From Pseudomonas sp. 21 (GTDB lineage: Bacteria > Pseudomonadota > Gammaproteobacteria > Pseudomonadales > Pseudomonadaceae): a stretch of 41,931 nt of DNA. The DNA lies in assembly GCF_000955805.1 (NCBI RefSeq), contig NZ_JYOA01000001.1, forward strand, positions 5,456-47,386, given 5' to 3'. How positions within the stretch are numbered: position 1 is the stretch's first letter; every line of letters begins with the position of its first letter. Below are positions 2,480-19,330 of this stretch, in pieces. The notes below the pieces were generated by a model. It saw nothing but the letters and a program-made list of their open reading frames with translations. It was not told the DNA's origin and searched no databases. A program made the translations under genes and the position numbers.

Positions 2480-3730
2480 TTACCAGATCGGCAAGGTGTA
2501 GCTGACGATGAAGCGGGTCTCGTCCATGTCATTGCCGAAGCTGCTGCGGAAGGTGCTGTTGCGCAGCTTGAAGCCGACATTCTTCAGCGGGCCGCTCTGT
2601 ACCAGGTAGCCGACGTCGGTGTCGCGCTCCCATTCCTTGCCGTCGCCCTGGCCGTTCAGCAGGTCGATATTGTCGCCGCGCAGGTAGCGGGTCATCAGGC
2701 TCAGGCCGGGCAGCCCGTAGGAGGCGAAGTTGAAGTCGTAGCGCAGTTGCCAGGAGCGTTCGTCCTTGTTGGCGAAGTCGCCGATCTGCACGTAGTTGAC
2801 CAGGTACGGGTCGGTGCCGGACAGGTAGGCGAAGCCGGTGTCGCCGGACATGCTCTGCAGGCCCAGGCCGAACGCCTGGTTGCCCAGCTTGTAGGTGAAC
2901 ATGGCGTTGAGCGCGCGGTTGTCGACGTTGCTGCCGCCATCGTCGGTGGAGCGCGCCCAGCGGATGTCGGACTTCAGCGACTGGCCCTCGGCAATCGGCA
3001 GCGTGTGCACCAGGCTCACGTAGTGCTGGCGATAGAGGTCTTCGAGGTTGGCGTAGTGGTAGCTGGTGCTCAGCTGGCTGTTCCAGCGGTAAGTGCCACC
3101 GGCGATGTTGAAGCGGTCGCTGGTGAGGTGGCTGCCGGTGACGATGTTGCGCTTGTTGCCGCGGGTCATCGACAGGTCTTCGTTGTTGGACGAATCGCGC
3201 TGCTTCACCTCGCGCAGCTGGCCGAGCTGCAGGTCGAGGTCGTCGAGCTCCTTGGACTCCACCAGCGCGCCCTGGAAGGTCTGCGGCAGCAGGCGGGTGT
3301 CGTTGTACTGCACCACCGGCAGCTTGGGCAGCAAGGTGCCGACCTTCAGCGTGCTTTTGGAAGCGCGCAGCTTGGCGGTGAGACCGAGGTCGCTGTAGTC
3401 GTCGGCCGCGCGCTTGTCGCTGGCCGAGTACGGCAGCAGGCCGGAGCCGGAGCGGTCCGGGCTGGAATCCAGCTTCAGGCCCAGCAGGCCCAGGGCATCG
3501 ACGCCCACGCCAACGGTGCCCTCGGTGTAGCCCGACTCGTAGCGCAGCAGGAAGCCCTGGGCCCACTCTTCGGATTTGGACTGCGCGGCACCGCTCTGGC
3601 GGTAGTCGCGGTTGAAGTAGAAGTTGCGTGCTTCGATGCTGGCCTTGCTGTCGGCGAGGAAATCCGCATGGGCGAACGAGGGCAGCAGCGCCAGTCCGGA
3701 GACCAGCACAGGGGTACGACGATTTTTCAT
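2480..3730 (-). CDS. OprD-family outer-membrane porin
   Basis: The protein has 416 residues with a signal peptide ending FAHA at about residue 22, followed by [20 protein letters not shown], the conserved opening of OprD/Occ porins. Alternating beta-strand patterns and the C-terminal YTLPIW ending (aromatic final residue) fit an 18-strand substrate-specific channel. Family members take up basic amino acids (OccD) or carboxylates and aromatic acids (OccK). The gene follows etfA by 79 bases on the same strand and lies at the distal end of the beta-oxidation gene block, which suggests it admits the acid that block degrades. DcaP in the Acinetobacter dicarboxylate cluster plays the same positional role from an unrelated porin family. 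Confidence 0.92.
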
Positions 3731-3809
3731 TGTTCTTGTTTCTTTCTACTGGGGTGTTGGCAAAACGCCGGGCCGATGACAGCTGGCCCGGCCGGGGGAA
3801 TGAGCAGGA

Positions 3810-4754
3810 TCAGAGGGTCTTTTCCAGCTCCGGTACGGCTTCGAACAGGTCGGCAACCAGGCCGTAGTCGGCGACCTGGAAGATCGGCGCCTCTTCGTCC
3901 TTGTTGATCGCAACGATCACTTTCGAATCCTTCATGCCCGCCAGGTGCTGGATGGCGCCGGAGATGCCGACGGCCACGTACAGCTGCGGAGCAACGATCT
4001 TGCCGGTCTGGCCGACTTGCATGTCGTTCGGCACGAAGCCGGCGTCAACGGCAGCGCGGGAAGCGCCGACGGCAGCGCCCAGCTTGTCAGCCAGGGAGTA
4101 GAGGATGCTGAAGTTGTCGCCATTGCCCATGCCACGGCCGCCGGAAACGACGATCTTGGCAGCGGTCAGTTCCGGACGGTCGGACTTGGCCAGCTCTTCG
4201 CCAACGAAGGCGGACTTGCCAGCGTCAGCCGGGCCGGAAACAGCTTCAACAGCGGCGGAACCACCTTCGGCTGCAACGGCGTCGAAACCGGTGCCACGTA
4301 CGGTGATGACCTTGACGGCAGCCGAGGACTGCACGGTAGCGATGGCGTTACCGGCGTAGATCGGACGCTTGAAGGTGTCGGCGCTGACCACTTCGATGAT
4401 CTCGGAGATCTGGTCGACGTCCAGCAGGGCGGCAACGCGCGGCAGGAAGTTCTTGCCGTTGGTGGTGGCGGCGGCCAGCACGTGGCTGTAGCCCTTGCCC
4501 CCCTCTCCGTTCACAAGAGCAGCGATCAGCGGAGCAACGTTCTCCGGCAGCTGATGAGCGTAAGCGGCGTTGTCGGCGACCAGCACCTTGGAAACACCGG
4601 CGATCCTGGCAGCGGCTTCGGCTACGCCAGCGACATTCTGGCCAGCGACCAGCACGACGATGTCGCCGCCAATTTTCTGCGCGGCGGCAACGGTATTCAG
4701 CGTCGCAGCACCCAGCGCGCCATTCGAATGTTCTGCAACAACCAGCACAGTCAT
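3810..4754 (-). CDS. etfA: Electron transfer flavoprotein alpha subunit
   Basis: The protein has 314 residues, slightly above the usual ~309. The C-terminal FAD domain signature is clear: SGGRGMG around residue 205, then [24 protein letters not shown], then the [16 protein letters not shown] ending. With EtfB it carries electrons from acyl-CoA dehydrogenases to ETF:quinone oxidoreductase in the inner membrane. The gene overlaps etfB by one base. Pseudomonads normally have a housekeeping etfBA elsewhere, so this may be a second copy dedicated to the acyl-CoA dehydrogenase of the cluster. That needs a genome-wide check. Confidence 0.96.
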
Positions 4755-5503
4755 CAGATCACCTTCGCTTCGTTCTTCAGTTTCTCGACCAGTTCGGCCA
4801 CCGATTTCACCTTGATGCCGGCGCTGCGCGCGGCAGGCGCTTCGACCTTGAGGGTCTTCACGGTCGAGGCCGTGGAGACACCCAGCGCGTCAGGGGGGAG
4901 GAATTCCAGCGGCTTCTTCTTCGCCTTCATGATGTTCGGCAGCGACGCGTAGCGCGGCTCGTTCAGGCGCAGGTCGGTGGTGACGATTGCCGGCAGGTTC
5001 AGGGCAACGGTCTGCAGGCCGCCGTCGATTTCACGGGTGACGTTGACCTTGTCGCCAGCGACTTCCACCCTGGAGGCGAAGGTGCCCTGGGCGTAGCCGG
5101 TCAGCGCCGCCAGCATCTGGCCGGTCTGGTTGTTGTCGCTGTCGATGGCCTGCTTGCCGAGGATGACCAGCTGCGGCTGCTCCTTGTCGACAATGGCTTT
5201 CAGCGCTTTCGCCACAGCGAGGGAGTTCAGCTCGTCATTGCTTTCGACCAGCACCGCGCGGTCGGCGCCGAGCGCCAAAGCCGTACGCAGTTGCTCCTGC
5301 GCGCCACTGGGGCCGACCGAGACCACCACGATCTCGCTGGCAACGCCTTTCTCTTTCAGGCGAACGGCCTCTTCCACGGCGATTTCGCAGAAGGGGTTCA
5401 TGGACATCTTGACGTTGGCGAGATCGACGCCGGAGTTGTCCGCCTTGACGCGGACCTTGACGTTGTAATCGACCACGCGTTTTACCGCGACCAGTACTTT
5501 CAT
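4754..5503 (-). CDS. etfB: Electron transfer flavoprotein beta subunit
   Basis: The protein has 249 residues, full length. It begins [20 protein letters not shown] and contains [19 protein letters not shown] and the AMP-binding stretch [23 protein letters not shown], all typical of bacterial EtfB. It pairs with EtfA to form the FAD- and AMP-containing heterodimer. An AAGGAAACAACTG sequence precedes the ATG. A REP doublet lies between this gene and the upstream CoA-transferase gene, so co-transcription with the beta-oxidation genes may be attenuated or a separate promoter may lie at 5504-5556. Confidence 0.96.
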
Positions 5504-5556
5504 CAGTTGTTTCCTTGGCTGACGCCGGTTTGCATCGGCGCTGCGGTTGGTTTGGG

Positions 5557-5634
5557 TTCGCGAGCAAGCTCGCTCCTACAGGTCCAGGCTTGCGCCGGTG
5601 AGCTTTTTTGTAGGGGCGAGCTTGCTCGCGAACG
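5557..5634. repeat. REP inverted pair inside the gene block
   Basis: A forward arm (TTCGCGAGCAAGCTCGCTCC and TACA, 5557-5580) faces a reverse arm (GTAGGGGCGAGCTTGCTCGCG, 5610-5630) across 29 bases. The two arms could form a long hairpin in the transcript. The pair sits 3 bases beyond the CoA-transferase stop and about 54 bases before the etfB start, where it could stabilise the upstream mRNA or set unequal expression of the two halves. Confidence 0.85.
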
Positions 5635-5637
5635 GAC

Positions 5638-6876
5638 TCATGCCTTACCGAGTTGCTCGATCACACCCTCGGCCTTCAACTGCGCCAGGCGCGCGTCATC
5701 GATCCCCAGACGGCGCTTGAGCACCTCGTCGGTGTGCTCGCCGAGCATGGGCGCCGGGCGCTGGTATTCCACCGGCGTCTCGGACAATTTCAGCGGGCTG
5801 CCGACCATGCGGAACGCCGGGTTCTGCGCGTGGGGAATCTCCACCAGCATGTCGCGGGCGACCACCTGCGGCTCATCCAGTGCGCGGCCGATATCGTTGA
5901 TCACCCCGACCGGCACCTTCATCGCATGGATGCGCTTCACCCAGTTGTCGGCGGTGTCGCCCTGGAAGTGCTCGGCCAGCTTGCCGACGATGATGTCGCG
6001 GTTGCGCACGCGGTCGGCGTTGCGGGTGAAGCGCGGATCCTTCGGCAATTCGGGCAGGCCGATGGCATCGCACAGCGAGACGAACTGGCTGTCGTTGCCG
6101 CAGGCGATGATGAAGTCCATGTCCTGCGCGCTGAACACCTGGTACGGCACGATGTTGACGTGGGCGTTGCCCTGGCGGCCCGGCGAGCGGCCGGTGGCGA
6201 GGTAGTTCTGGCTCTGGTTGCCGAGCATGGCGACCTGCACGTCGAGCAGCGCCATGTCGCAGTGCTGGCCGCGGCCGGTCTTCTCACGGGCCAGCAGCGC
6301 GGCCTGGATGGCAACCACCGAGTACAGGCCGGTCATCACGTCCGACACGGCGACACCGACTTTCTGCGGGCCGGCGCCGGGCACGCCGTCCTTCTCGCCG
6401 GTGATGCTCATCAATCCGCCCATGCCCTGGATGATGAAGTCGTAGCCGGGCTCCTCGGCGCGCGGGCCGGTCTGGCCGAAGCCGGTGATGGAGCAGTAGA
6501 CCAGGCGCGGATTCACCTTCGACAGGCTGTCGTAGTCCAGCCCGTACTTGGCCAGCGAGCCGGCCTTGTAGTTCTCGATCAGCACATCGCATTCGCAGGC
6601 CAGGGCGCGCACCAACGCCTGCCCTTCTTCGGAGGCCAGGTTCAGCGCCACCGACAGCTTGTTGCGGTTGGTGGACTGGTAGTACGCCGCCTCGGAGCTG
6701 TCCGAACCATCGGCGGCTTTCATGTAGGGCGGGCCCCAGCCACGGGTGTCGTCACCCACGCCGGGCCGTTCGATCTTGATCACTTCCGCGCCCAGGTCGG
6801 CCAGCACCTGGCCGCACCAGGGGCCGGCCAGCACACGGCTGAGGTCGAGTACGCGGTATCCGCTCAAAGCACCCAT
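5638..6876 (-). CDS. Class III (CaiB/BaiF) acyl-CoA transferase, probable dicarboxylate CoA-transferase
   Basis: The protein has 412 residues, full length for family III. It opens MGALSGYRVLDLSRVLAGPW and carries DLGAEVIKIERP, ENYKAGSLAKYGLDY, SITGFGQTGP and TGRGQHCDMALLD. The likely catalytic Asp is D179 in VGVAVSDVMTG. From memory it resembles the pseudomonad transferase next to glutaryl-CoA dehydrogenase, which suggests succinyl-CoA:dicarboxylate CoA transfer. In context it would activate the substrate acid with CoA taken from succinyl-CoA, a product of the thiolase encoded 20 bases upstream. A GAGGAG ribosome site sets the start at 6876; the longer frame to 7107 runs back into the thiolase gene. 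Confidence 0.9.
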   Translation of the reverse strand: MGALSGYRVLDLSRVLAGPWCGQVLADLGAEVIKIERPGVGDDTRGWGPPYMKAADGSDSSEAAYYQSTNRNKLSVALNLASEEGQALVRALACECDVLIENYKAGSLAKYGLDYDSLSKVNPRLVYCSITGFGQTGPRAEEPGYDFIIQGMGGLMSITGEKDGVPGAGPQKVGVAVSDVMTGLYSVVAIQAALLAREKTGRGQHCDMALLDVQVAMLGNQSQNYLATGRSPGRQGNAHVNIVPYQVFSAQDMDFIIACGNDSQFVSLCDAIGLPELPKDPRFTRNADRVRNRDIIVGKLAEHFQGDTADNWVKRIHAMKVPVGVINDIGRALDEPQVVARDMLVEIPHAQNPAFRMVGSPLKLSETPVEYQRPAPMLGEHTDEVLKRRLGIDDARLAQLKAEGVIEQLGKA

Positions 6877-6896
6877 CTTCAACTCCTCACTGGCGC

Positions 6897-8099
6897 TCAG
6901 GCGCGCTCGATAACCATGGCGAGCCCCTGGCCCACGCCGATGCAAAGACTGATCACCGCATAGCGTTGACCGCTGCGCTGCAGTTGGCGCGCCACGCTCA
7001 GCGCCAGCCGCGCGCCGGAGGCGCCCAGCGGATGGCCGACGGCGATGGCGCCGCCATTGGGGTTGACCCGCGCATCGTCGAAATCGACACCCAGACCGTG
7101 CAGGCAACCGAGCACCTGGGAAGCGAAAGCCTCGTTGATCTCGATGATGTCCATGTCGGCCAGGGTCAGGTTGGCGCGGGCCAGCGCCTTGTTGATCGCC
7201 TCGACCGGGCCGACCCCCATGATGCGCGGCTCGACGCCGACGGCCGCCGCCGAAAGAATCCGCGCCAGCGGCTTGAGGCCGTGGCGCTCGCCCGCCTCTG
7301 CCGAACCGATCAGCAATGCGGCGGCGCCGTCGTTGACGCCGGAAGCGTTGCCCGCGGTGACCACGCCGCCTTCGGACAGCGGCTTGAGGCGCGCCAGTGC
7401 GGCTTCATCGGAAGACGGACGCGGATGCTCATCCTGCTCCACCACATTCGGCGGCGTCTTGCGCCCGGTGGGCACGCTGACCGGGAGGATTTCCCCGGCG
7501 AAGAAACCATCCTGGCGCGCGGCTTCGAAGCGCGCCTGGGAACGGGCGGCGAAACGGTCGGCCTGCTCGCGGCTGATGCCGAACTCGCGGGCGACGTTGT
7601 CGCCGGTCTCCGGCATGCTGTCGTTGCCGAACCCGGCAACGATCTTCGGGTTGGGGAAGCGCGCACCGATGGTGCTGTCGAATACGGTCAGGTCACGGCT
7701 GTAAGCCGCCTCGGCCTTGGCCATGACGAAGGGCGCGCGGGACATGCTTTCCACCCCGCCAGCGACGAACAGCTCGCCTTCGCCGCAGGTCACGGCACGC
7801 GCCGCATCGATCACGGCAGCCAGGCCGCTGGCGCACAGGCGGTTCACTGTCTGGCCCGGCACGGTCACCGGCAGGCCGGCCAGCAGCGCGGCATGGCGGG
7901 CGATATTGCGGCTGTCTTCCCCGGCCTGGTTGGTGTTGCCGAGGATCACGTCCTCGATGGCTTCACCCGGTACGTTATTGCGGGCCAGCAATTCGCGGAT
8001 CACCTGGGCGACCAGATCATCCGGGCGCACCGGCGCCAGGGCGCCGCCATGGCGACCGAAGGGGGTGCGCAGGCCGGCATAGATATAAGCATTGAGCAT
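6897..8099 (-). CDS. 3-oxoadipyl-CoA thiolase-like acetyl-CoA acyltransferase (PcaF/PaaJ type)
   Basis: The protein has 400 residues with the full thiolase set: nucleophile Cys89 (NRLCASG), His356 (GHPLGASGAR) and Cys386 (CIGVGQG). Several stretches match the beta-ketoadipyl-CoA thiolase subgroup rather than FadA or PhaA: NTNQAGEDSRNIAR, GGVESMSRAPFVMAKAE, STIGARFPNP, DSMPETGDNVA and VEQDEHPRP. It should cleave 3-oxoadipyl-CoA, or a close homologue, with CoA to succinyl-CoA and acetyl-CoA. AAGGAGATACC precedes the ATG at 8099. It lies 32 bases after the dehydrogenase gene and 20 before the CoA-transferase gene, in one operon. This subgroup assignment is the best clue to the pathway's substrate. 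Confidence 0.93.
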   Translation of the reverse strand: MLNAYIYAGLRTPFGRHGGALAPVRPDDLVAQVIRELLARNNVPGEAIEDVILGNTNQAGEDSRNIARHAALLAGLPVTVPGQTVNRLCASGLAAVIDAARAVTCGEGELFVAGGVESMSRAPFVMAKAEAAYSRDLTVFDSTIGARFPNPKIVAGFGNDSMPETGDNVAREFGISREQADRFAARSQARFEAARQDGFFAGEILPVSVPTGRKTPPNVVEQDEHPRPSSDEAALARLKPLSEGGVVTAGNASGVNDGAAALLIGSAEAGERHGLKPLARILSAAAVGVEPRIMGVGPVEAINKALARANLTLADMDIIEINEAFASQVLGCLHGLGVDFDDARVNPNGGAIAVGHPLGASGARLALSVARQLQRSGQRYAVISLCIGVGQGLAMVIERA

Positions 8100-8131
8100 C
8101 GGTATCTCCTTGAATCGGTAGGCGCCAGGCT

Positions 8132-9667
8132 TCAGCCCAGCGCGGGCTCGGCGTGGCGCAGCGACAGTCCCAGCGCGGCGCGGCGGCGCAGCCACGGGCC
8201 GGGGCGGTAACGGGCATCGCCGGTCAGGTCGGTCATGCGTTCGAGAATAGTCAGCAGGCGCGCCGGGCCGACGCTGTCGCCCCAGGCCAGCGGGCCTTGC
8301 GGGTAGCCCAGGCCACGGCGCACGCCTTCGTCGAGGTCGTCGACGCTGGCGATGCGCTGCTGGACGATGTCACCGGCCAGGTTGACGATCAGCGCCAGCA
8401 CGCGCTGGGCGACGAAGCCGACGCTGTCATTGATTACCGTGACGCCTACGCCGTCGGCCGCCAGCAGTGCATGGGCGGCATCGCGCATGGCCGGGGCAGT
8501 CGCCGGGTTCTGCATCAGGCAGCGGTGGCGCTGCAGGTCCAGCAACAGGTCGATGCACAGGGTCCGCGCCGGGGCGGTACCGAAGTTCTGGCAGGCCGTG
8601 GTTGCATCCACACCATAGGGTGCGAGCAGGCACAGCGCCTCGCTGCTGGGTTGGACGCCCTGCTCCAGGGTCGCACCGAGCTTCTTCAGCAACTCGCCGA
8701 GCAACTCGCGGTCCTGGTCGTTCTCCGCACCGATCCACACCGGCGGCAGCGCGGCCACGTTCGGTACCGGTTGCGGCGCCGGCGGATCGATCATCTTGCC
8801 GTCCGCATAGCGATAGAAGCCGCGGCCGACCTTGCGGCCGACGAAGCCGGCCTCGAGCATCTGCCGTGTCAGTGCCGCCGGGCGATAGCGCGGTTCCTGG
8901 TAGAACTGGTTGTAGATGGACTCGATCACCGGGTGGGAAACGTCTAGCGCGGTGAGGTCGAACAGCTCCAGCGGCCCCATGCGGAAGCCCAGGCCCTCGC
9001 GCAGGACGCGATCGATATCGGCCGGTTCGGCGATGGCTTCCTTGAGCATCTGCAGGGCTTCGGTGCTGTAGGCACGGCCGGCGTGGTTGATGATGAAGCC
9101 GGGGGTGTCCTTGGCGCGGATGCCTCGATGGCCCATGCGCGCGGCCAGCGCCACCAGGCTGTCGCCGACCAGCGGGTCGCTGGCCAGGCCGTCGATCACC
9201 TCGACCACCTTCATCAGCGGCACCGGGTTGAAGAAGTGGAAGCCCGCCACCCGCTCCGGATGCTGGCAACCACGGGCAATGCTGGTGACTGACAGCGACG
9301 AGGTGTTGGTGGCGAGGATGCAGTCGGCGCTGACCACCGCTTCCAGATCAGCCAGCAGCGCCTGCTTGGCGTCCAGACGCTCGATGATCGCTTCGACCAC
9401 CAGATCGGAATCCGCCAGCTCGCCCAGGGAACCGGCAACCAGCAGACGCGCCAGGGTGGCGTCGGCCTCGGCGGCAGTGATCTTGCCCTTCTCCGCCAGC
9501 TTGGCGAGGGTGCGACCGAGGTTTTCCCGCGCGGTTTGCGCCGCACCGTCACGGGCATCGAAGAGTTTCACCTGGATGCCGGCCTGGGCGGCAATCTGGG
9601 CGATGCCGCTGCCCATGACCCCCGTGCCAACGATGGCCATGCGTTCAACTGTTCGGATCATGCTCAT
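8132..9667 (-). CDS. Two-domain 3-hydroxyacyl-CoA dehydrogenase (PaaH-like)
   Basis: The protein has 511 residues. An NAD-binding Rossmann fold starts at VGTGVMGSGIAQ (13-24). The catalytic His144 lies in AGFHFFNPVPLMKVVEVI. A C-terminal 3HCDH domain is present twice, about 190-285 and 410-500, the second beginning INDSVGFVAQRVLALIVN. This long two-repeat layout is that of PaaH/PaaC-type 3-hydroxyadipyl-CoA dehydrogenases rather than the ~280-residue short type. It oxidises the 3-hydroxyacyl-CoA made by the hydratase, with NAD+. The ATG overlaps the hydratase TGA by four bases. Confidence 0.93.
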   Translation of the reverse strand: MSMIRTVERMAIVGTGVMGSGIAQIAAQAGIQVKLFDARDGAAQTARENLGRTLAKLAEKGKITAAEADATLARLLVAGSLGELADSDLVVEAIIERLDAKQALLADLEAVVSADCILATNTSSLSVTSIARGCQHPERVAGFHFFNPVPLMKVVEVIDGLASDPLVGDSLVALAARMGHRGIRAKDTPGFIINHAGRAYSTEALQMLKEAIAEPADIDRVLREGLGFRMGPLELFDLTALDVSHPVIESIYNQFYQEPRYRPAALTRQMLEAGFVGRKVGRGFYRYADGKMIDPPAPQPVPNVAALPPVWIGAENDQDRELLGELLKKLGATLEQGVQPSSEALCLLAPYGVDATTACQNFGTAPARTLCIDLLLDLQRHRCLMQNPATAPAMRDAAHALLAADGVGVTVINDSVGFVAQRVLALIVNLAGDIVQQRIASVDDLDEGVRRGLGYPQGPLAWGDSVGPARLLTILERMTDLTGDARYRPGPWLRRRAALGLSLRHAEPALG

Positions 9668-10440
9668 TCCCCCAGGAAACTGGCTTGGCGTTTTTCCAGG
9701 AAGGCGGCGGCGCCCTCCTTCTGGTCTTTCGAGTCGAACAGCAACTGGAAGGCCTTGCGCTCGAGCGTCAACGCGCTGTCCAGCGGCAGGTCGGCACCGG
9801 CGAGCATCACTTCCTTGATCTGCGCCACGGCCAGCGGCGGCAGTGCGGCGATCTCGGCAGCCAGCTCCAGCGCGCGAGGCAGCGTGCGCGAGTCTTCCAC
9901 CACTTCACTGAGCATGCCGATGGCCAGGGCTTCGGGCGCCTTGATCAGGCAGCCGGTCAGGGCGATGCGCATTGCCTGGAACTTGCCCACGGCGCGGATC
10001 AGCCGCTGGGTGCCACCGGCGCCGGGCATCAGGCCGAGTTTCACTTCCGGCTGGCCAAAGCGTGCCGACTCGCCGGCGACGATGATGTCGCAGTGCATCG
10101 CCAGCTCGCAGCCGCCACCCAGGGCGAAACCGTTCACCGCAGCGATCACCGGCTTGGGGCAGCGGGAAATCGCTTCCCACAGCAGCTCGGTGTGGCGACG
10201 GTACATCTCGATGGGGCTGGCCTGGGCGAACTCGCGGATGTCAGCACCGGCGACGAAGCACTCCTCTCCCCCGGTCAGCACCACCGCGCGAACCTCGGGG
10301 TTATCGCTGAGGGCGCGGAAGTGCTCGGCCAGTTGCTGGCGCACCGCAGCATTGAGGGCGTTTTTGGCTTCCGGGCGGTCGATGCGTACAACCGCCACAC
10401 CGTCGGCCTGGATATCGAGATGAACCACACTGGTACTCAT
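9664..10440 (-). CDS. Enoyl-CoA hydratase/isomerase family protein
   Basis: The protein has 258 residues, a normal crotonase length. The oxyanion-hole segments FVAGADIREF and GGGCELAMHCD are present, as are both acidic residues of true hydratases, Glu112 and Glu132 (FGQPEVKLGLMPG). It should hydrate the 2,3-enoyl-CoA, like PaaF. It is the first gene of the minus-strand operon ECH-HAD-thiolase-CoA-transferase(-etfBA-oprD). A GAGGT site lies upstream of the ATG, and an operator candidate sits only 22 bases before the start, where a bound regulator would be well placed to block transcription. Confidence 0.93.
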   Translation of the reverse strand: MSTSVVHLDIQADGVAVVRIDRPEAKNALNAAVRQQLAEHFRALSDNPEVRAVVLTGGEECFVAGADIREFAQASPIEMYRRHTELLWEAISRCPKPVIAAVNGFALGGGCELAMHCDIIVAGESARFGQPEVKLGLMPGAGGTQRLIRAVGKFQAMRIALTGCLIKAPEALAIGMLSEVVEDSRTLPRALELAAEIAALPPLAVAQIKEVMLAGADLPLDSALTLERKAFQLLFDSKDQKEGAAAFLEKRQASFLGE

Positions 10441-10461
10441 GAAAGCGTTGACCTCACATTT

Positions 10462-10484
10462 GTTTCGTCTGACGAAACTACATT
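10462..10484. promoter_or_regulatory. Operator candidate 1: perfect 17-base palindrome
   Basis: GTTTCGTC-T-GACGAAAC (10462-10478) is a perfect inverted repeat with 8-base arms. The sequence TTTCGTCTGACGAAACTACA recurs 163 bases away with two changes. It lies just upstream of the hydratase gene, on its 5' leader or promoter. It is the natural binding-site candidate for the divergent IclR regulator. Confidence 0.7.
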
Positions 10485-10625
10485 CCGTATTTCGATTTCA
10501 TCATAGTGATCCTTAATCGACGCTGTAAACGGTGACGATCCAAATAGCCTTGAAAGCCCTTTAAAACCTGGGCCACAGATATTTTTAGCGGCACGTCTGT
10601 ACTAACCCGTTCAGACCCATTACAA

Positions 10626-10647
10626 TTTCGCCTGACGAAACTGCATT
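10626..10647. promoter_or_regulatory. Operator candidate 2: near-identical copy beside the iclR-like gene
   Basis: TTTCGCC-T-GACGAAA (10626-10640) is the same dyad with one broken pair, and the shared block continues as CTGCATT. It starts 58 bases upstream of the IclR-family ATG. Two copies in the same orientation, one near each divergent gene, fit autoregulation plus control of the catabolic operon. Confidence 0.65.
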
Positions 10648-10683
10648 TTATTTTATTGATTTTCCGAGAATAGGGGTTCTACC

Positions 10684-11550
10684 ATGCGCCGCAACAAGAC
10701 GGAGATGGACTCGGCTGCGCCGACGAAAAACGAAGGTGAAATCGGCCTGCTGGAACGCGGTCTGTACGACCCGGCCACGGCACTGAGCGAAGAGGAAAAC
10801 AGCGGCCAGTTCGTCACGGCCCTGGCTCGCGGCCTGGAGATCCTGCGCTGCTTCACGCCACGGGAAAACGTGCTGAGCAACCAGGACCTGGCCCGCAAGA
10901 CCGACCTGCCCAAGCCGACCGTGACGCGCCTGACCAACACCCTGATGCGCCTGGGCTGCCTCAAGCGCGAGGTGCACTCGGGCAAGTACCAGCTGGACGT
11001 CGGCGTGCTGGGCTTCGGCTACGCGATGCTGTCGAACCTGTCGATCCGCGCGGTGGCCCATCCGCTGATGGAGGAACTGGCCAACCACGCCCAGGCGGCG
11101 GTGGCCATGGCCGCCCGCGACCGTCTGCAGATGGTGTACCTGGACGTGGTCCAGGGACAGGGAAACATGACGATGCGCCGGCAGATCGGCAGTTACCTGC
11201 CGCTGGCGGCGAGCTCGGTGGGCCGCGCGTGCCTCGCGGCGATGCCGGAAAACGAGCGGGAGTTCCTGCTCGAACACATTCGCGAACGCGAACCGGACAC
11301 CTGGCCGGCCATCCGCAAGGGTCTGGACCGCGCCTTCAGGGACTACACCGACTACGGCTACTGTCTGTCGATCGGTGAATGGCACCGCGACGTCAACTCC
11401 GTCGCCGTGCCCTTGGTACACCCGCAGTACGGCCTGCTGGCCTTCAACTGCGGCGGTCCGAGCTTTCAGCTGACACGCGAGAAGCTCGAGGACGACATCG
11501 GGCCCCGCCTGATCAACATGGTCAACAACATAGGTGCCGCCGCTCGCTGA
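10684..11550 (+). CDS. IclR-family transcriptional regulator (PcaR/DcaR-like role)
   Basis: The protein has 288 residues. A ~40-residue polar N-terminal extension precedes the winged helix (FVTALARGLEILRCFTPRENVLSNQDLARKTDLPKPTVTRL, about 43-83). The IclR effector-binding domain spans about 110-280 (YLPLAASSVGRACLAAM, GYCLSIGEWHRDVNSVAVPL). IclR proteins such as PcaR, PcaU and PobR commonly sense aromatic or dicarboxylic acids and control their degradation. The gene stands between the two arms of the regulon, divergent from the hydratase operon and 59 bases upstream of the acyl-CoA dehydrogenase. AGGGG lies 8 bases from the ATG. Confidence 0.92.
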   Translation: MRRNKTEMDSAAPTKNEGEIGLLERGLYDPATALSEEENSGQFVTALARGLEILRCFTPRENVLSNQDLARKTDLPKPTVTRLTNTLMRLGCLKREVHSGKYQLDVGVLGFGYAMLSNLSIRAVAHPLMEELANHAQAAVAMAARDRLQMVYLDVVQGQGNMTMRRQIGSYLPLAASSVGRACLAAMPENEREFLLEHIREREPDTWPAIRKGLDRAFRDYTDYGYCLSIGEWHRDVNSVAVPLVHPQYGLLAFNCGGPSFQLTREKLEDDIGPRLINMVNNIGAAAR

Positions 11551-11609
11551 ATCTCGGGTGACGGTGCCTCGCCAGACCGGCCCGCTCGCGGGCCTTGTGA
11601 GGAGTGCAC

Positions 11610-12764
11610 ATGATCCGAGACCCAGAAACGCTGCAGATACTTCTGGACTCCATCCACCAGTTCGTCGGCGAAGTGCTGATCCCGCGGGAGAACGAGGTTG
11701 CCGAAACCGACGCGATCCCGCAGGACATCGTCCAGCAGATGCGCGAGATGGGCCTGTTCGGCCTGACCATCCCCGAAGAGTTCGGCGGCCTGGGCGTGAC
11801 CATGGAAGAAGAGGTGAACATCACCTTCGAACTGGGCCGCACCTCCCCCGCCTTCCGCTCCTACATCGGTACAAACAACGGCATCGGCTCCATCGGCATC
11901 CTGATCGACGGCACGCCGGAACAGAAAGCCCACTACTTGCCCAAGCTCGCCAGCGGTGAACTGCTCAGCGCCTTCTGCCTGACCGAGCCGGACTCAGGCT
12001 CCGACGCCGCCTCGCTGAAGACCACCGCCGTGCGCGATGGCGACTTCTACGTGCTCAACGGCACCAAGCGCTTCATCACCAACGCCCCGCACGCCGGCAT
12101 CTATACCGTGATGGCCCGCACCAACCCGGCGATCAAGGGTTCCGGCGGCATCAGCGCGTTCATCGTCGAACGCGGCACGCCGGGCATTTCCCTCGGCAAG
12201 CCGGACCACAAGATGGGCCAGAAAGGCGCCCACACCAGCGACGTGATCTTCGACAACGTGCGCATCCCCGCCAGCCAGCTGATTGGCGGCGTCGAGGGCG
12301 TGGGCTTCAAGACCGCCATGAAAGTGCTCGACAAGGGCCGCCTGCACATCGCCGCCCTGAGCGTCGGCGCCGCCGAGCGCATGCTCGCCGACGCGTTGCA
12401 GTACGCCCTGGAGCGCAAGCAGTTCGGCCAGCCGATCGCCGAGTTCCAGCTGATCCAGGCGATGCTCGCCGACAGCAAGGCCGAGATCTACGCCGCCCGC
12501 TGCATGGTGCTGGACGCCGCGCGCAAGCGCGACGAAGGCCGCAACGTCAGCACCGAAGCCTCCTGCGCCAAGATGTTCGCCACCGAGATGTGCGGCCGCG
12601 TCGCTGACCGCTGCGTGCAGATCCACGGCGGCGCCGGCTACGTCAGCGAATACGCCATCGAGCGCTTCTACCGCGACGTCCGCCTGTTCCGACTCTACGA
12701 GGGCACCACCCAGATCCAGCAGGTGATCATCGCCCGCAACATGATCCGCGAAGCCCAGGCCTGA
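11610..12764 (+). CDS. Acyl-CoA dehydrogenase, candidate dicarboxylyl-CoA dehydrogenase
   Basis: The protein has 384 residues, full length. FAD and substrate motifs are FCLTEPDSGSDAASLKTTA (122-140) and GTKRFITNA. The catalytic base is probably Glu364 in LYEGTTQIQ. An Arg83-Ser84 pair (AFRSYIGTNN) aligns by eye with the Arg-Ser of glutaryl-CoA dehydrogenase that contacts the free carboxylate, which would suit an omega-carboxyl acyl-CoA such as adipyl-CoA. The enzyme makes the 2-enoyl-CoA and passes electrons to ETF, encoded across the divergent promoter. The start at 11610 has GAGGAG five bases upstream; an in-frame GTG at 11604 overlaps that site and is rejected. Confidence 0.93.
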   Translation: MIRDPETLQILLDSIHQFVGEVLIPRENEVAETDAIPQDIVQQMREMGLFGLTIPEEFGGLGVTMEEEVNITFELGRTSPAFRSYIGTNNGIGSIGILIDGTPEQKAHYLPKLASGELLSAFCLTEPDSGSDAASLKTTAVRDGDFYVLNGTKRFITNAPHAGIYTVMARTNPAIKGSGGISAFIVERGTPGISLGKPDHKMGQKGAHTSDVIFDNVRIPASQLIGGVEGVGFKTAMKVLDKGRLHIAALSVGAAERMLADALQYALERKQFGQPIAEFQLIQAMLADSKAEIYAARCMVLDAARKRDEGRNVSTEASCAKMFATEMCGRVADRCVQIHGGAGYVSEYAIERFYRDVRLFRLYEGTTQIQQVIIARNMIREAQA

Positions 12765-12895
12765 CACACAAGTTCTGAGGCACCCGACACGGCGGCACGT
12801 GGCCACGCACCACGCGCCCGCCGGCAGGATTCGCACGCACGCTTACCGAGGGTCGGCCAACCGCCCCGCCAACAACTACAACAGGTAATTCGTTC

Positions 12896-14176
12896 ATGGA
12901 AAACACTGCTTCCGCACCGGCTGCGAGCGCCGCCACCCAGAGCAAGACCTGGGTCCTGGTCTTCGCCTTCTGCTTCATCGGCCTGCTGATCGATGGCGCC
13001 GACCTGATGCTCCTCTCCTACAGCCTCACCAGCCTCAAGGCCGAGTTCGGCCTGAGCAACCTCCAGGCCGGCAGCCTGGGCAGTGTCACCCTGGCCGGCA
13101 TGGCCTTCGGCGGCATCTACGGCGGCTGGGCCTGCGACCGCTTCGGCCGGGTCAGGACGGTGGTCTGGACCATCGTGCTGTTCTCCGTCGGCACCGCCAT
13201 CCTCGGGCTGACCCACAACTACTGGCAGTTCGCCGCGGCACGCTTCGTCGCCTCCCTCGGCCTGGGCGCCCTTTACGTGGCCTGTAACACGCTGATGGCC
13301 GAGTACGTGCCGACCAAGTACCGCACCACGGTGCTGGGCACTCTGCAGGCGGGCTGGTCGGTGGGCTACATCGTCGCCACCCTGCTGGCCGGCTGGATCC
13401 TGCCGGACCACGGTTGGCGCTACCTGTTCTACATCGCCATCATCCCGGTGGTGCTGGCCGTGGCCATGCGCAAGCTGATCCCCGAACCCGCTGCCTGGGT
13501 CCAGGCGCAGGCCGAACGCCAGCAGCGCAAGACTGCCGGCCAGTCGAGCGGCGTCGCCGCCGCTCCGCGCCAGAACGCCTTCCGCCAGATCTTCAGCGAC
13601 CCGAAGGCCAGCCGCATGTTCCTGTTCTGGGCGCTGACCGCCGGCTTCCTGCAGTTCGGCTACTACGGCGTGAACAACTGGATGCCGTCGTACCTGGAAA
13701 CCGAGATGGGCATGAACTTCAAGGCCATGACCTCGTACCTGGTGGGCACCTACGCGGCGATGATCCTCGGCAAGGTACTGGCTGGCGTCGCCGCCGACTG
13801 GTTCGGCCGCCGCACCGTGTTCTCCTTCGGCGCCCTGGGCACCGCCGTGTTCCTGCCGGTGATCGTGCTGTTCCACAGCCCGGAGAACATTCTCTGGATG
13901 CTGGTGGTGTTCGGCTTCCTCTACGGCATTCCCTACGGCGTGAACGCGACCTACATGACCGAAAGCTTCGCCGCCGCCTTCCGCGGCACGGCAGTGGGCG
14001 GCGCCTACAACATCGGCCGCATTGGCGCGGCCATCGCTCCGGCGGTGATCGGCTTCCTCGCCACGCAGATGTCCATTGGCGTCGGCTTCCTGGTGATGGG
14101 CGCGGCGTACTTCATCTGCGGCGTGATCCCCGCCCTGCTGATCCGCGACAAGCAGTTCGACCCGCAGCAGGAATGA
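12896..14176 (+). CDS. MFS transporter of the aromatic acid/dicarboxylate:H+ symporter type
   Basis: The protein has 426 residues and about 12 transmembrane helices. Helix 1 carries the DGADLMLLSY signature of the AAHS group (PcaK, MucK, DcaK, BenK). Motif A copies are GGWACDRFGRVR and GVAADWFGRRT, and a long central cytoplasmic loop (about 190-225) separates the halves. It is an inner-membrane proton symporter, probably for the acid degraded by the flanking enzymes. It is 131 bases after the dehydrogenase gene on the same strand and is followed by a strong terminator. Substrate identity is inferred from context only. Confidence 0.92.
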   Translation: MENTASAPAASAATQSKTWVLVFAFCFIGLLIDGADLMLLSYSLTSLKAEFGLSNLQAGSLGSVTLAGMAFGGIYGGWACDRFGRVRTVVWTIVLFSVGTAILGLTHNYWQFAAARFVASLGLGALYVACNTLMAEYVPTKYRTTVLGTLQAGWSVGYIVATLLAGWILPDHGWRYLFYIAIIPVVLAVAMRKLIPEPAAWVQAQAERQQRKTAGQSSGVAAAPRQNAFRQIFSDPKASRMFLFWALTAGFLQFGYYGVNNWMPSYLETEMGMNFKAMTSYLVGTYAAMILGKVLAGVAADWFGRRTVFSFGALGTAVFLPVIVLFHSPENILWMLVVFGFLYGIPYGVNATYMTESFAAAFRGTAVGGAYNIGRIGAAIAPAVIGFLATQMSIGVGFLVMGAAYFICGVIPALLIRDKQFDPQQE

Positions 14177-15033: not shown

Positions 15034-16443
15034 TCAGTGGCTGAGGAAATGGTTCGACAGCCAGTTCAGCGCCCTGCCCGGCCGCGTCAGCGCATCGATG
15101 AAGCTCGGGCCCCAGAAGCGGATGTCGTTGGCCTGCAGAACCGCATACATGTCGCGGTGACGCGCCTGGCGCTCCTTGAGCGGCATGCGCAAGGCCTGCT
15201 GCATGGCGTCGGCCAGGGCGTCGCGGTCGTGAGGGTTGATGATCAGCGCGCCGCCCAGCTCGGCGGCCGCGCCGGCGAACTGGGAGAGGATCAGCACGCC
15301 GGGATCGTCCGGGTCCTGGGCGGCTACGAACTCCTTGGCGACCAGGTTCATGCCATCGCGCAGCGGCGTCACCAGGCCGATGCGCGCGTGGCGCATGACC
15401 ATCGCGATGTCCGCGCGCTGGTGATTGCGCGCCACGTAGCGCAGCGGCACCCAGGACACGGCGCCGAAGCGCCCGTTGATGTGCCCTACCCGTGCGCTCA
15501 CGGCGGCATCGATATCGGCGTATTCGGGGATGTCCTGGCGGCTGCCCGGTGATATCTGCAGGCAGGTGACGCGGTTGTGCCAGTCCGGGTTGCGCTCGAG
15601 GAAGCGCTCGTAGCCGTCCAGCCGGTTGACGATGCCCTTGGAGTAATCGAGACGATCCACCCCCACCATCAGCGCGCGGCCGCCCAGGCTTTCGCGCAGG
15701 TCCTGGGCGGCCTGGCTCTGCGAAGCCTCTTCGGCCAGGCGGCGAAAGCCTTCGGTATCTACACCCACCGGGAATACGCCCACGCGGAAGTGCTGGTCCT
15801 CCAGGTGATAACGCCGGCCATCGGGCGTTGCCGCGCCCACAACGCGGGTGAGGTAGCGGGCGAAGTTGCTGGCGTCGTTCTCGGTCTGGAAGCCGATCAG
15901 GTTGTACTCGGTGAGCGCGCGGATCAGTTCGTCGTGGTGCGGCAACGCGGTAATGAGGTCGGCCGGCGGCATCGGGATGTGCAGGAAGAAGCCGATGCGA
16001 TTGCCGTGCCCGCGTTGCCTCAGCGCCAGGGCCAGGGGGATCAGGTGGTAGTCGTGGACCCAGAGGACGTCATCGTCCTCCAGCAGCGGACTCAGGCGCT
16101 CGGCGAAGAACTCGTTGACCCGCTGGTAGCCGCCGAACTCGGCCTCGTTGATCTCGGCCAGGTCGACCCGGTAATGCAGGATTGGCCAGAGCACACGGTT
16201 GGCGAAGCCGTTGTAGTACTCGTCGAAGTCCTGCGGGTGCAGGTCGGTCAGAACGTACTGCAGGTTGTCGCGCTGCACCGTGGTCGGCGGGCCCGGCTCC
16301 TCGGCCTTCCTGCCGCTCCAGCCGAACCAGATGCCCTCGCGGTCGCGCATCGCCGCGTCCACCGCCACCGCCAGCCCGCCCGGAGCGGGCCCGTTCTCGC
16401 CGGGAATGCCCACCCGGTTGGAGATCACCACGAGACGCGACAT
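15034..16443 (-). CDS. otsA: Trehalose-6-phosphate synthase
   Basis: The protein has 469 residues, a GT20 glycosyltransferase of normal OtsA length. It opens MSRLVVISNRVG with the GGLAVAV loop, and has WVHDYHLIPLALALR, FFLHIPMPP, GVDRLDYSKGI (nucleotide-sugar phosphate contacts) and DGMNLVAKEFVAAQ. It transfers glucose from UDP-glucose to glucose-6-phosphate in the cytoplasm to make trehalose-6-phosphate. It is the last gene of the otsB-GH15-otsA operon and overlaps the GH15 gene by 19 bases. Trehalose is an osmotic and desiccation protectant in Pseudomonas, so sigma-S or osmotic control is likely but not visible here. Confidence 0.96.
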   Translation of the reverse strand: MSRLVVISNRVGIPGENGPAPGGLAVAVDAAMRDREGIWFGWSGRKAEEPGPPTTVQRDNLQYVLTDLHPQDFDEYYNGFANRVLWPILHYRVDLAEINEAEFGGYQRVNEFFAERLSPLLEDDDVLWVHDYHLIPLALALRQRGHGNRIGFFLHIPMPPADLITALPHHDELIRALTEYNLIGFQTENDASNFARYLTRVVGAATPDGRRYHLEDQHFRVGVFPVGVDTEGFRRLAEEASQSQAAQDLRESLGGRALMVGVDRLDYSKGIVNRLDGYERFLERNPDWHNRVTCLQISPGSRQDIPEYADIDAAVSARVGHINGRFGAVSWVPLRYVARNHQRADIAMVMRHARIGLVTPLRDGMNLVAKEFVAAQDPDDPGVLILSQFAGAAAELGGALIINPHDRDALADAMQQALRMPLKERQARHRDMYAVLQANDIRFWGPSFIDALTRPGRALNWLSNHFLSH

Positions 16444-18224: not shown

Positions 18225-19036
18225 CGGGGATGTCCTCCTGCTGCTTGCATGAGTGCTCCACGGACTTGCTCCGCGTCGCTGAACACCGCGCAGGCACCGG
18301 GTAAGGCGCGCCCGACCGAGAGGCCGAGGCCACCCAGCGCGGGCATCAGCGCGATAGCGGGTTCGTCGGTGACGTCGTCGCCGATGTACAACGGCAGGCG
18401 CCCGGCAAAGCCAGGCGTGCCCAGCAGTCGCTGGATGGCCTGGGCCTTGTCGACACCTTCGGGGACGACTTCGTAGACCTGCTTGCCGTTGAGCAACCGC
18501 AGCCCTGCGCCCTCCGGCGCACGCAGCAAAGCCTGCAACTCCATACGCAGTTCTGCGGCGAGCGAAGGTGCCGAGCGGTAGTGCAGCGCGTAGCTGCTGC
18601 CCTTGTCTTCGGCATGGATTCCGACATGCCGGTTCGCCAGGGCGTTCAATTGCACTCGCACGCAGGCGGGCAGGTCCTGGGTGGTGCGGTGCAAGGGGCA
18701 GTCGCCGCTTTCGCGCCAGTGGGCGCCGTGGCCACCGCTGGCCGCCAGGCGCAAGGGTTGCAAGAGCCGGTCGAGTTCTTCGACCGGGCGGCCGCTGATC
18801 AGGGCCAGGGCACCGTCGAGTCGGCGGTGCAGGTGTGTGAGGGCATCGAGCAGCCCGGGCGGTACGACGACCGATCCGGGTGATTCGGCGATGTCCAGGA
18901 GGGTTCCGTCGACATCCAGGAACAGTGCAGTCTGCTGAGGTCGGCTGAGCCAGAGGTTCAGCAGCGCAGTGGCTGAGGCCTCGCTATGCGGGACCATGGC
19001 CGTGTCGACAGGTCCCCTTGGTACGGGACGTGACAT
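18221..19036 (-). CDS. otsB: Trehalose-6-phosphate phosphatase
   Basis: The protein has 271 residues with HAD-superfamily motifs: FLDVDGTLLDI (nucleophile and acid Asp), ALISGR, and the C-terminal YIGDDVTDEPAI (Mg2+ Asp pair). The DKG and NGKQVYEV segments are typical of OtsB. It removes phosphate from trehalose-6-phosphate. The start at 19036 has GGAG about 9 bases upstream; the ATG at 19051 lacks a site. It is first in the otsB-GH15-otsA operon, and its stop overlaps the next ATG. The 294 bases upstream to the divergent EAL gene hold no gene. Confidence 0.94.
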   Translation of the reverse strand: MSRPVPRGPVDTAMVPHSEASATALLNLWLSRPQQTALFLDVDGTLLDIAESPGSVVVPPGLLDALTHLHRRLDGALALISGRPVEELDRLLQPLRLAASGGHGAHWRESGDCPLHRTTQDLPACVRVQLNALANRHVGIHAEDKGSSYALHYRSAPSLAAELRMELQALLRAPEGAGLRLLNGKQVYEVVPEGVDKAQAIQRLLGTPGFAGRLPLYIGDDVTDEPAIALMPALGGLGLSVGRALPGACAVFSDAEQVRGALMQAAGGHPR

Positions 19037-19330
19037 GAGCCATTTCTCCATGTTCAGGGCGTGCCGCGCGGCCGTGGGTAGCCGTTGCGGACGTGAAAGG
19101 GAGCCCAAGGACCCTAACATGTGGGGCCACGAGGGTCGACCGCTGGTTTCATCCCGGCGCCTGGCCGGGAAGGCTCAGGCCAGAGCGGGCGGGGGCTGCG
19201 AGGAACTCGTGCGAAGTGTCATATAAGTCATGGATAGGATTTTCCTGACAGAACAACTGGAATCCTCCGCCTCACAGTGGGAAGGGCATTTCCGAGAATG
19301 CGTCAGGCCAATCCTTCATGAGAGAACCCC

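Follow-up and report, generated by a model that had tools for sequence, protein, structure and literature searches.

We assign the ten genes at 2480..14176 of the DNA studied here, with a probability of about 0.75, to a two-unit, IclR-controlled cluster that would serve the uptake and β-oxidation of adipate, and probably also the oxidation of adipyl-CoA derived from longer even-chain dicarboxylic acids. The window, i.e. the whole stretch analysed, comprises 41,931 nt of Pseudomonas sp. 21 (GCF_000955805.1, NZ_JYOA01000001.1, positions 5,456-47,386 of the forward strand; position 1 is its first letter). The genes form two divergent units, ech-hcdh-thiolase-CoA-transferase-etfBA-oprD on the minus strand and iclR-ACAD-MFS on the plus strand (ACAD, acyl-CoA dehydrogenase), with the following features:

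2480..3730, minus strand: OprD-family porin, a lineage-specific addition (PF03573, 540 bits)
3810..4754, minus strand: ETF alpha subunit (PF01012 and PF00766)
4754..5503, minus strand: ETF beta subunit (PF01012)
5638..6876, minus strand: class III (CaiB/BaiF) CoA-transferase, proposed succinyl-CoA:adipate CoA-transferase (PF02515, 440 bits, cut-off 23.3)
6897..8099, minus strand: 3-oxoadipyl-CoA thiolase (equivalog model NF006001 (PRK08131), 756 bits, cut-off 622; tree)
8132..9667, minus strand: two-domain 3-hydroxyacyl-CoA dehydrogenase, PRK08268 subfamily (NF006124, 739 bits, cut-off 508)
9664..10440, minus strand: enoyl-CoA hydratase, PRK08138 subfamily (NF006007, 444 bits, cut-off 355)
10462..10478, no strand: palindromic operator 1, GTTTCGTCTGACGAAAC, proposed IclR site before ech (conservation)
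10625..10641, no strand: palindromic operator 2, ATTTCGCCTGACGAAAC, proposed IclR site before iclR (conservation)
10684..11550, plus strand: IclR-family regulator (PF09339 and PF01614)
11604..12764, plus strand: acyl-CoA dehydrogenase, proposed adipyl-CoA dehydrogenase (PF00441/02770/02771; alignment)
12896..14176, plus strand: MFS transporter, aromatic acid:H+ symporter-like, proposed to take up dicarboxylates (PF07690)

The genes are tightly packed: ech/hcdh and etfB/etfA overlap, and the spacing is 32 bp between the dehydrogenase and thiolase genes and 20 bp between the thiolase and CoA-transferase genes. Family profiles and gene calls confirmed what the initial annotation had seen, namely that the named enzymes, the porin, the transporter and the IclR protein lie together at one locus, with correct coordinates; the inclusion of a class III CoA-transferase and an own IclR regulator in the set was likewise borne out by PF02515 and by PF09339 plus PF01614. 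Named loci were collected by a contig scan with the CoA-transferase, keeping the best 80 of a larger number and leaving out tblastn matches that covered less than half of the query before counting. In 45 of these best 80, the same locus also held an ACAD with ≥70% identity to the one in the window, and the association of the two genes is therefore not due to chance. A thiolase at ≥70% identity was missing from 12 of the 45 ACAD-bearing loci among these best 80, which counts against our reading. The search for homologous proteins scored the 7998 candidates with the most shared words and listed the best 120, while at most four candidates per genome were scored in the family search.

The thiolase (400 aa) carries Cys89, His356 and Cys386, which we take to be its functional residues. 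Against the pcaF model TIGR02430 it scored 553 bits, under the cut-off of 597. Its phylogeny had been set beforehand as a refutation test, and the tree, built from 35 of 81 matches, placed it with the PcaF/PaaJ-type enzymes and not with the other thiolase paralogues. In this 35-row tree, the 20 cluster thiolases made up one side of a branch supported at 100/100, and together with four PcaF/PaaJ-type rows they grouped at 100/99; nine other thiolases of the genome fell outside this group, as did the two remaining rows. The cluster thiolase is the third one of the 3-oxoadipyl-CoA type in this genome.

The ACAD has 384 aa when read from the ATG at 11610; residues are numbered here from the GTG at 11604. 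Its Arg85-Ser86 falls at the column of Arg94 of glutaryl-CoA dehydrogenase (GCDH), and Glu366 lies in a YEGT motif. In GCDH, Arg97 (Arg94 in the human enzyme) and a Tyr are located at the terminal carboxylate of glutaryl-CoA, according to the available excerpt of PMC3169403. Arg-Ser occupied this column in all 64 cluster ACAD rows (55 distinct sequences) and all 42 GcdH rows (38 distinct), and in none of 54 other ACAD rows (35 distinct), of which 44 (25 distinct) came from the same genome and four were gapped at the column. Matches covering under 70% of the query and those with an internal stop had been dropped from the alignment. The nearest ACAD paralogue in the genome (42%), which stood outside the alignment since its match overran its own stop, was checked separately and has Cys-Ser in place of Arg-Ser. 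As a check of the GcdH label, one member was compared with a solved glutaryl-CoA dehydrogenase and gave 734 bits. Compared over its full length with solved proteins, the window ACAD scored higher against caffeyl-CoA reductase CarC and general acyl-CoA dehydrogenases (at most 313 bits) than against glutaryl-CoA dehydrogenases (at most 226 bits); we therefore regard the Arg-Ser anchor as a local feature and, given the only moderate similarity of the whole protein to GCDH, did not file the enzyme as a GCDH. The thiolase tree and this carboxylate anchor back the earlier proposal of a dicarboxylate β-oxidation that ends at 3-oxoadipyl-CoA with adipate as the likeliest substrate, and a route centred on C6 dicarboxylates is well supported as a prediction.

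The CoA-transferase (412 aa, with an ATG start after GAGGAG) contains a GYD motif with the aspartate at residue 146, presumably the catalytic residue as in class III CoA-transferases. Its best NCBIfam model was succinate--glutarate CoA-transferase NF052585, and since it scored 505 bits against a cut-off of 750, it was not filed as a member of this equivalog; with the solved succinate--hydroxymethylglutarate CoA-transferase 9br6 it gave 340 bits. No gene of the two-subunit type (PF01144) was found among the ten cluster genes, and PcaI/PcaJ-like queries run over five loci of the genome (L151-L155) matched in L153 only. The CoA-transferase tree (52 of 126 extracted rows) was a quick one without bootstrap and with long branches for the genome's own paralogues, so we used its inner groups alone; relatives from Moraxellaceae in the same clade adjoin gcdH. 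For the tree rows, matches covering under 80-85% of the query were dropped, as were those with an internal stop.

The two-domain dehydrogenase was placed by family models, and the runner-up model for the hydratase was the 2,3-dehydroadipyl-CoA hydratase PaaF (283 of 371). That the porin and ETF are parts of the cluster held true insofar as both are present; the porin is lineage-restricted, however, and the genome has a further ETF pair of which the one in the cluster is nearly a copy. At ≥60% identity the porin was found in two of the 45 ACAD-bearing named loci (among the best 80 of more), both of close relatives, and its nearest solved chain is 4frt_A, a 'Probable porin' (697 bits). The second ETF pair, on another contig of the genome (C38), is 95% (etfA) and 93% (etfB) identical to the cluster copies. 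As for the transporter, previously called AAHS, the corresponding model TIGR00895 was indeed its best match, but at 378.1 bits it stayed under the cut-off of 418.55. Of 22 loci that carry gcdH, 16 also have an MFS homologue at ≥55% identity.

The best NCBIfam model for the regulator was TIGR02431 (PcaR/PcaU/PobR), at 123.7 bits and thus under the cut-off of 284.75. Two palindromes 160-163 bp apart were found in the ech-iclR gap of 17 of the 18 named Pseudomonas loci that hold this gap, and sites of the form TTTCGN5CGAAA occurred in seven of eight Acinetobacter class III loci examined. No operator sites were found in loci L028-L035, L087 and L150, which counts against our reading. Elsewhere in the genome there were two operator matches, one of them inside a 719-residue open frame, versus three in the control, and we treated the extra matches as chance. 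The operator pair thus points to a regulon confined to the cluster locus, in line with the self-contained regulon suggested by the initial annotation. In a congeneric genome without a close CoA-transferase, ech, hcdh, iclR, the ACAD gene and both operators were present, and no match to the CoA-transferase or the thiolase was found within the 20 kb taken.

The following pathway can be predicted from these assignments. The porin and the MFS transporter would bring the diacid into the cell, and the class III enzyme, judged by its family, would move CoA from succinyl-CoA to adipate. The ACAD would oxidize adipyl-CoA to 2,3-didehydroadipyl-CoA and pass the electrons to ETF, with Arg85-Ser86 probably holding the far carboxylate. 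The hydratase and the two-domain dehydrogenase are expected from their families to lead to 3-oxoadipyl-CoA. Cleavage of 3-oxoadipyl-CoA into acetyl-CoA and succinyl-CoA is established pathway chemistry, and this step would fall to the thiolase, whose place in the PcaF-like clade is seen in the tree; the succinyl-CoA released may recharge the CoA-transferase. The IclR protein may bind both conserved palindromes between ech and iclR and set the expression of both units.

A substrate of C7-C10 (pimelate, suberate or azelate), activated and shortened by the cluster, appears unlikely. We considered the azeR/azelate locus because the window belongs near the P. nitroreducens group (its nearest named relative among the best 80 of more loci is P. 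pseudonitroreducens): the AzeR regulator of P. nitroreducens is described as part of a cluster needed for the use of azelaic acid by a β-oxidation-like pathway (excerpt of PMC7398563), and AzeR is of the IclR family (excerpt of PMC10945470). However, the cluster thiolase is of the 3-oxoadipyl type, and in PMC10945470 the legend to the figure of the azeR neighbourhood treats Phycobacter and P. nitroreducens jointly and mentions neither an acyl-CoA dehydrogenase nor a hydratase or a thiolase. HTH_IclR matched the genome at 22 places, with six strong matches of ≥47 bits, and DctM, a TRAP permease family, at three, with one strong match on contig C22; the six strong IclR matches all lie on contigs other than C22 and none has any of the three DctM matches within 100 kb, i.e. 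no azeR-TRAP neighbourhood was seen. One of the six, C40:546048, adjoins a pim-like ACAD pair: this locus encodes a PimC-like ACAD and another ACAD as well as a fused hydratase/dehydrogenase, and it has an IclR regulator of its own. A second pair of the PimC-like type lies on contig C1. The PimCD-like pairs of Ralstonia are used for C8-C12 diacids, and another ACAD there has C8-C12 and adipate phenotypes (excerpt of PMC12543098). The window ACAD itself scored only 95 bits against the pimeloyl-CoA dehydrogenase model TIGR03204 (PimC; cut-off 623.85). We rejected a PimCD-type longer-chain system at the cluster, as it is present elsewhere in the genome and not here, and the separate pim-like locus is the better candidate for longer diacids as far as gene content can tell.

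A role in aromatic degradation, in which the substrate would be a product of ring cleavage or else a substituted adipate such as 3-methyladipate, would agree with the AAHS-like transporter, the PcaR-like regulator and the PcaF-like thiolase, and in one related locus (L030) a pca-type gene run adjoins the cluster. Nevertheless, we regard it as quite improbable: of the two other 3-oxoadipyl-CoA thiolases of the genome, one lies near PcaI-/PcaJ-like genes and one near hydratases and a dehydrogenase, acyl-CoA dehydrogenation is needless for 3-oxoadipate, and a Pfam scan of 30 frames of the window, reaching to about 31 kb, found no ring-cleavage families. Finally, all enzyme families of the cluster are common to fatty-acid oxidation, and the closest solved relatives of the ACAD named above fit an ordinary short- or medium-chain monocarboxylic β-oxidation set; the CoA-transferase family speaks against such a set, and because of the thiolase tree and the ACAD anchor column we rejected it as hardly credible.

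The adipate cluster favoured here has a described counterpart. Otzen et al. (2018, PMC6061476, in excerpt) assigned the second cluster on contig 5 of P. jessenii GO3, ORF4277-ORF4282, to adipate β-oxidation. In a comparison by gene order and gene size, both clusters share the succession CoA-transferase (acetyl-CoA:oxalate type, class III), thiolase, 3-hydroxyacyl-CoA dehydrogenase, hydratase, IclR and ACAD, and gene sizes of 1238, 1202, 1541 and 1154 bp in P. jessenii face 1239, 1203, 1536 and 1155 bp, with stop, in the window. The excerpt names no ETF, porin or MFS protein as members of the P. jessenii cluster, whereas the window has all three. The P. jessenii cluster shares its contig with the caprolactam genes, and four of its six proteins were induced by caprolactam; the hydratase and IclR were not among the induced proteins shown, and the inducer was not adipate itself. 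P. aeruginosa PAO1 is said there to have homologues of all six genes. Among the papers examined in our literature search for native pseudomonad adipate genes, this one alone matched. The cluster, read earlier as a pseudomonad analogue of the dca genes, is thus not an unreported one, and since a closely similar set of genes has been known from another Pseudomonas since 2018, we consider it useful rather than surprising.

Adipate clusters of other genera offer further comparisons. The dca genes of A. baylyi, which lies outside the loci fetched, presumably follow the same logic of uptake, CoA transfer, dehydrogenation and a 3-oxoadipyl-CoA route, and we take them to encode the two-subunit CoA-transferase DcaIJ and the porin DcaP where the window has a class III enzyme and an OprD porin. 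This contrast with Acinetobacter, drawn earlier, is not general, because 18 Acinetobacter loci among the best 80 of more carry both a 66-70% identical class III CoA-transferase and an orthologous ACAD. Across the Acinetobacter loci L036-L054, L073 and L078, the CoA-transferase is 61-70% and the ACAD, where present, 72-83% identical to that of the window; IclR, thiolase, dehydrogenase and hydratase share one locus in most of them, as in the window, but the gene order is rearranged and several have two sets side by side. Four Halomonas-type clusters lack the thiolase, and in one of them (L030) two CoA_trans genes and a PcaF follow, which we counted in favour of our reading.

The glutarate pair of P. 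putida, gcdH and PP_0159 (excerpt of PMC10870600), likewise has a class III CoA-transferase for a diacid. GcdH shares the Arg-Ser anchor with the window ACAD, and in Moraxellaceae a related MFS gene is often nearby; unlike the window pathway, however, GcdH decarboxylates and ends at crotonyl-CoA, and a gcdH and class III CoA-transferase pair forms a separate locus (L151) in the window genome. Ralstonia sp. UNC404CL21Col resembles the window in having a PcaR-type IclR repressor, CoA transfer for C5-C6 diacids and separate diacid ACADs; it differs in its two-subunit β-ketoadipate CoA-transferase and in the spread of the genes over several loci (excerpt of PMC12543098).

Our literature search found no gene for the second, adipate-induced succinyl-CoA transferase of Pseudomonas fluorescens. 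Hoet and Stanier reportedly described this enzyme enzymologically around 1970. As a tentative and somewhat doubtful joint reading, the cluster may encode that transferase, which would hence be of class III and not of the two-subunit type, the regulator may be dedicated to sensing diacids and act on the conserved operator pair, and Moraxellaceae may have reused the transferase and transporter of the cluster to build a glutarate operon.

Adipic acid is a building block of nylon and polyester. Growth of P. putida KT2440 on it has needed the imported A. baylyi genes dcaAKIJP (excerpts of PMC10870600 and PMC12337976). A cluster native to pseudomonads, with a transferase encoded by one gene and with an ETF, a transporter and a regulator of its own, would offer a compact alternative set of parts. 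The Arg-Ser column gives a simple way to test sequences for diacid-specific acyl-CoA dehydrogenases, and through the operator pair one can test directly whether the regulator senses adipate. Most likely, this gene set with its own regulator lets Pseudomonas use adipic acid, and nearly the same set is already known from P. jessenii GO3 (PMC6061476).

All genes named in the initial annotation were found in the window by Pfam and NCBIfam scans; its source genome comprises 6.33 Mb in 42 contigs. The features are as follows:

2480-14176, both strands: the ten-gene cluster
minus strand, in this order: enoyl-CoA hydratase (ech), two-domain 3-hydroxyacyl-CoA dehydrogenase (hcdh), thiolase, CoA-transferase, etfB, etfA, oprD
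plus strand, in this order: iclR, acyl-CoA dehydrogenase (ACAD, 11604-12764), MFS transporter
10462-10478 and 10625-10641: two palindromes between ech and iclR
15034-19120, minus strand: trehalose-related genes (glycosyltransferase 20, GH15-type, trehalose phosphatase; family scan)

Since the trehalose-related genes lie beyond the MFS gene, the cluster ends there. Start sites were re-read for the CoA-transferase (from 6876) and the thiolase (from 8099). On the minus strand, ech/hcdh and etfB/etfA overlap and the remaining adjacent genes are 20-134 bases apart, spacing that would be expected of an operon.

The best sequence evidence for a substrate carrying a far carboxylate is one alignment column of the ACAD, whose Arg85-Ser86 falls where glutaryl-CoA dehydrogenases have Tyr-Arg-Ser. 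In a glutaryl-CoA dehydrogenase, Arg97 (Arg94 of the human enzyme) sits together with a Tyr at the terminal carboxylate of glutaryl-CoA (PMC3169403). In a 160-row alignment, the Arg-Ser pair was present in 64/64 cluster ACADs, in 42/42 GcdH rows (labelled on the basis of one member scoring 734 bits to a solved glutaryl-CoA dehydrogenase) and in 0/54 other ACAD rows, which are divergent and hence placed with less certainty at this position; one of them has Arg followed by Val. The nearest paralogue in the same genome, dropped by the alignment filter and inspected separately, has Cys-Ser. Compared over its whole length, the ACAD resembles CarC and general acyl-CoA dehydrogenases more closely than it does glutaryl-CoA dehydrogenase, so the anchor is a local likeness. 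The assignment to C6 rather than C5 comes not from this column but from the thiolase and from a separate gcdH locus (L151).

The window thiolase passed the PRK08131 equivalog of 3-oxoadipyl-CoA thiolases (756 bits, cut-off 622) and did not reach the pcaF cut-off (553 of 597 bits). The latter is exceeded by both further 3-oxoadipyl-CoA thiolases of the genome, which are 59% and 57% identical to the window enzyme; one lies alongside PcaI- and PcaJ-like genes (L153), the other with hydratases and a dehydrogenase in what we infer to be a paa-like locus (L152). In a 35-row maximum-likelihood tree, a branch with 100/100 support separates the 20 cluster thiolases from all other rows, and their union with four PcaF/PaaJ-type rows has 100/99 support, the tree leaving the branching among these four open. 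Outside this union are nine further thiolases of the same genome, together with two rows that come from Halopseudomonas and a gammaproteobacterial MAG. The thiolase thus did not group with monocarboxylic fatty-acid enzymes, in agreement with the adipate-type dicarboxylate route proposed initially. By family score, the two-domain dehydrogenase exceeded PRK08268 (739 bits, cut-off 508) and stayed below PaaH (439 bits, cut-off 669).

The CoA-transferase belongs to PF02515; its closest family is succinate--glutarate CoA-transferase (505 of 750 bits, below the equivalog cut-off), and its solved relatives include succinate--hydroxymethylglutarate CoA-transferase. Family and thiolase product suggest succinyl-CoA as the probable CoA donor.

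The ech-iclR gap (243 bases) contains GTTTCGTCTGACGAAAC and ATTTCGCCTGACGAAAC, spaced 163 bases apart. Two TTTCGN5CGAAA sites 160-163 bases apart were present in 17 of the 18 gap-containing loci among L009-L027, the remaining one (L019) having a single exact site. For this motif, picked after being seen in the gap, 200,000 first-order Markov resamplings gave two sites in 0 and one site in 310 cases. Both sites also occur in the congeneric stretches L149, L156 and L157, of which L156 is in all likelihood the L011 contig a second time, and such sites were present in 7/8 Acinetobacter loci examined; none were found in congeneric L150, in L028-L035 or in L087. A stricter pattern occurs four times in the whole genome, twice in this gap and twice elsewhere, against three for the control. 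The matches elsewhere do not exceed the control, so the regulon looks self-contained, as the initial annotation had it. IclR would bind the palindromes and respond to a putative inducer.

A named-genome scan with the window CoA-transferase gave, among the best 80 of more loci, 45 in which an ACAD shares 70% or more identity with that of the window. Within these 45, several clipped by contig ends that lower the counts, IclR (at least 50%), 3HCDH (at least 50%) and ECH (at least 55%) were each present in 41, thiolase (at least 70%) in 33, MFS (at least 60%) in 31, ETF beta (at least 70%) in 15 and OprD (at least 60%) in 2. Activation and first dehydrogenation are thus the core steps conserved best, and the porin seems to have been added recently. 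The CoA-transferase was found at 91% identity or more in 12/25 genomes of the genus (own genome included) and at E<=1e-205 in 50/398 genomes and 8/19 genera of the family; the ACAD was found at E<=1e-120 in 14/25 genomes of the genus. In congeneric genome G012 (L149:8846-13469), ACAD, IclR, ECH, 3HCDH and both operators are present; CoA-transferase and thiolase had no match within the 20 kb taken.

No thiolase lies between dehydrogenase and CoA-transferase in 4/19 loci of L009-L027 (L015, L019, L021, L024) and in 4/4 Halomonas-type loci (L028, L029, L030, L033). ACAD and CoA-transferase alone remain at the cluster position in L031, L032 and L035, and these two with IclR and MFS in L034. In Vreelandella arcis (L030), a divergent weak match to IclR comes after the cluster, and then two CoA_trans genes, PcaF (680 bits, cut-off 597) and an alpha/beta hydrolase, a run that we read as probable pcaIJFD, labelling I, J and D by family and order; this one locus fits a pathway ending at 3-oxoadipyl-CoA. 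The L029 contig, with a Halomonas-like cluster (CoA-transferase 75%, ACAD 81%), is filed as Planctomycetaceae, possibly a binning error. Acinetobacter loci L036-L043, L046, L047, L051, L054 and L078 combine two IclR genes with components of one or two gene sets of the diacid type, with TTTCGN5CGAAA sites ahead of some genes or sets; L038, L039 and L051 have an additional ACAD, in L038 of 600 aa with a C-terminal extension.

For longer diacids, two other loci of the genome are better candidates than the window cluster:

G000:C40:540542-547379 (L202:2543-9380): pim-like locus with fused hydratase/3-hydroxyacyl-CoA dehydrogenase, PimC-like ACAD (499 bits, cut-off 623.85), second ACAD and divergent IclR
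G000:C1:233812-235725: second PimC-like ACAD pair

The genome also has a second etfBA pair, 93-95% identical to that of the cluster (four etfA matches in total), so the ETF of the cluster seems to have been copied from another pair, possibly a housekeeping one.

We conclude that the window holds a coherent, putatively IclR-controlled cluster that most likely serves C6-centred diacid (adipate) beta-oxidation. This kind of cluster is already in print: in P. jessenii GO3, ORFs 4277-4282 (oxalate-type CoA-transferase, thiolase, 3-hydroxyacyl-CoA dehydrogenase, enoyl-CoA hydratase, IclR and ACAD) have the same arrangement, 4/6 proteins were caprolactam-induced, and the authors assigned the set to adipate beta-oxidation, the idea also put forward in the initial annotation here; they note that P. 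aeruginosa PAO1 has a similar one (PMC6061476). According to RB-TnSeq, diacid beta-oxidation relies mostly on its own genes and later steps are more redundant (PMC12543098), which fits the variable thiolase of the cluster loci. P. putida KT2440 grew on adipate with imported dcaAKIJP (PMC10870600, PMC12337976). In literature searches not aimed at each point, we did not come across the operator pair, the glutaryl-CoA dehydrogenase-type anchor of this ACAD, a phylogeny of the thiolase, the adjacency to pca genes or the Moraxellaceae glutarate-operon link, and we do not claim these as unpublished.

The last of these concerns a possible origin of glutarate loci. In a quick 52-row tree, a single group (SH-aLRT 100) unites the gcdH-linked CoA-transferases of Moraxellaceae with the cluster enzymes of Pseudomonas, Halomonadaceae, Halopseudomonas and Acinetobacter, and the gcdH-linked CoA-transferases of Pseudomonas lie outside it; two cluster enzymes, from Azoarcus and Noviherbaspirillum, are next to join (91). 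In Moraxellaceae (L055-L068, L070-L072, L074-L077), the GcdH gene adjoins a CoA-transferase of this clade, often with a related MFS. Of the 22 loci with a GcdH gene, 16 have an MFS at least 55% identical to the window's; L054, which is among the 22, carries the ACAD as well, at a distance of about 10 kb. The Moraxellaceae glutarate loci may thus have arisen by recruiting, for glutarate, a transferase and a transporter that served a C6 diacid.
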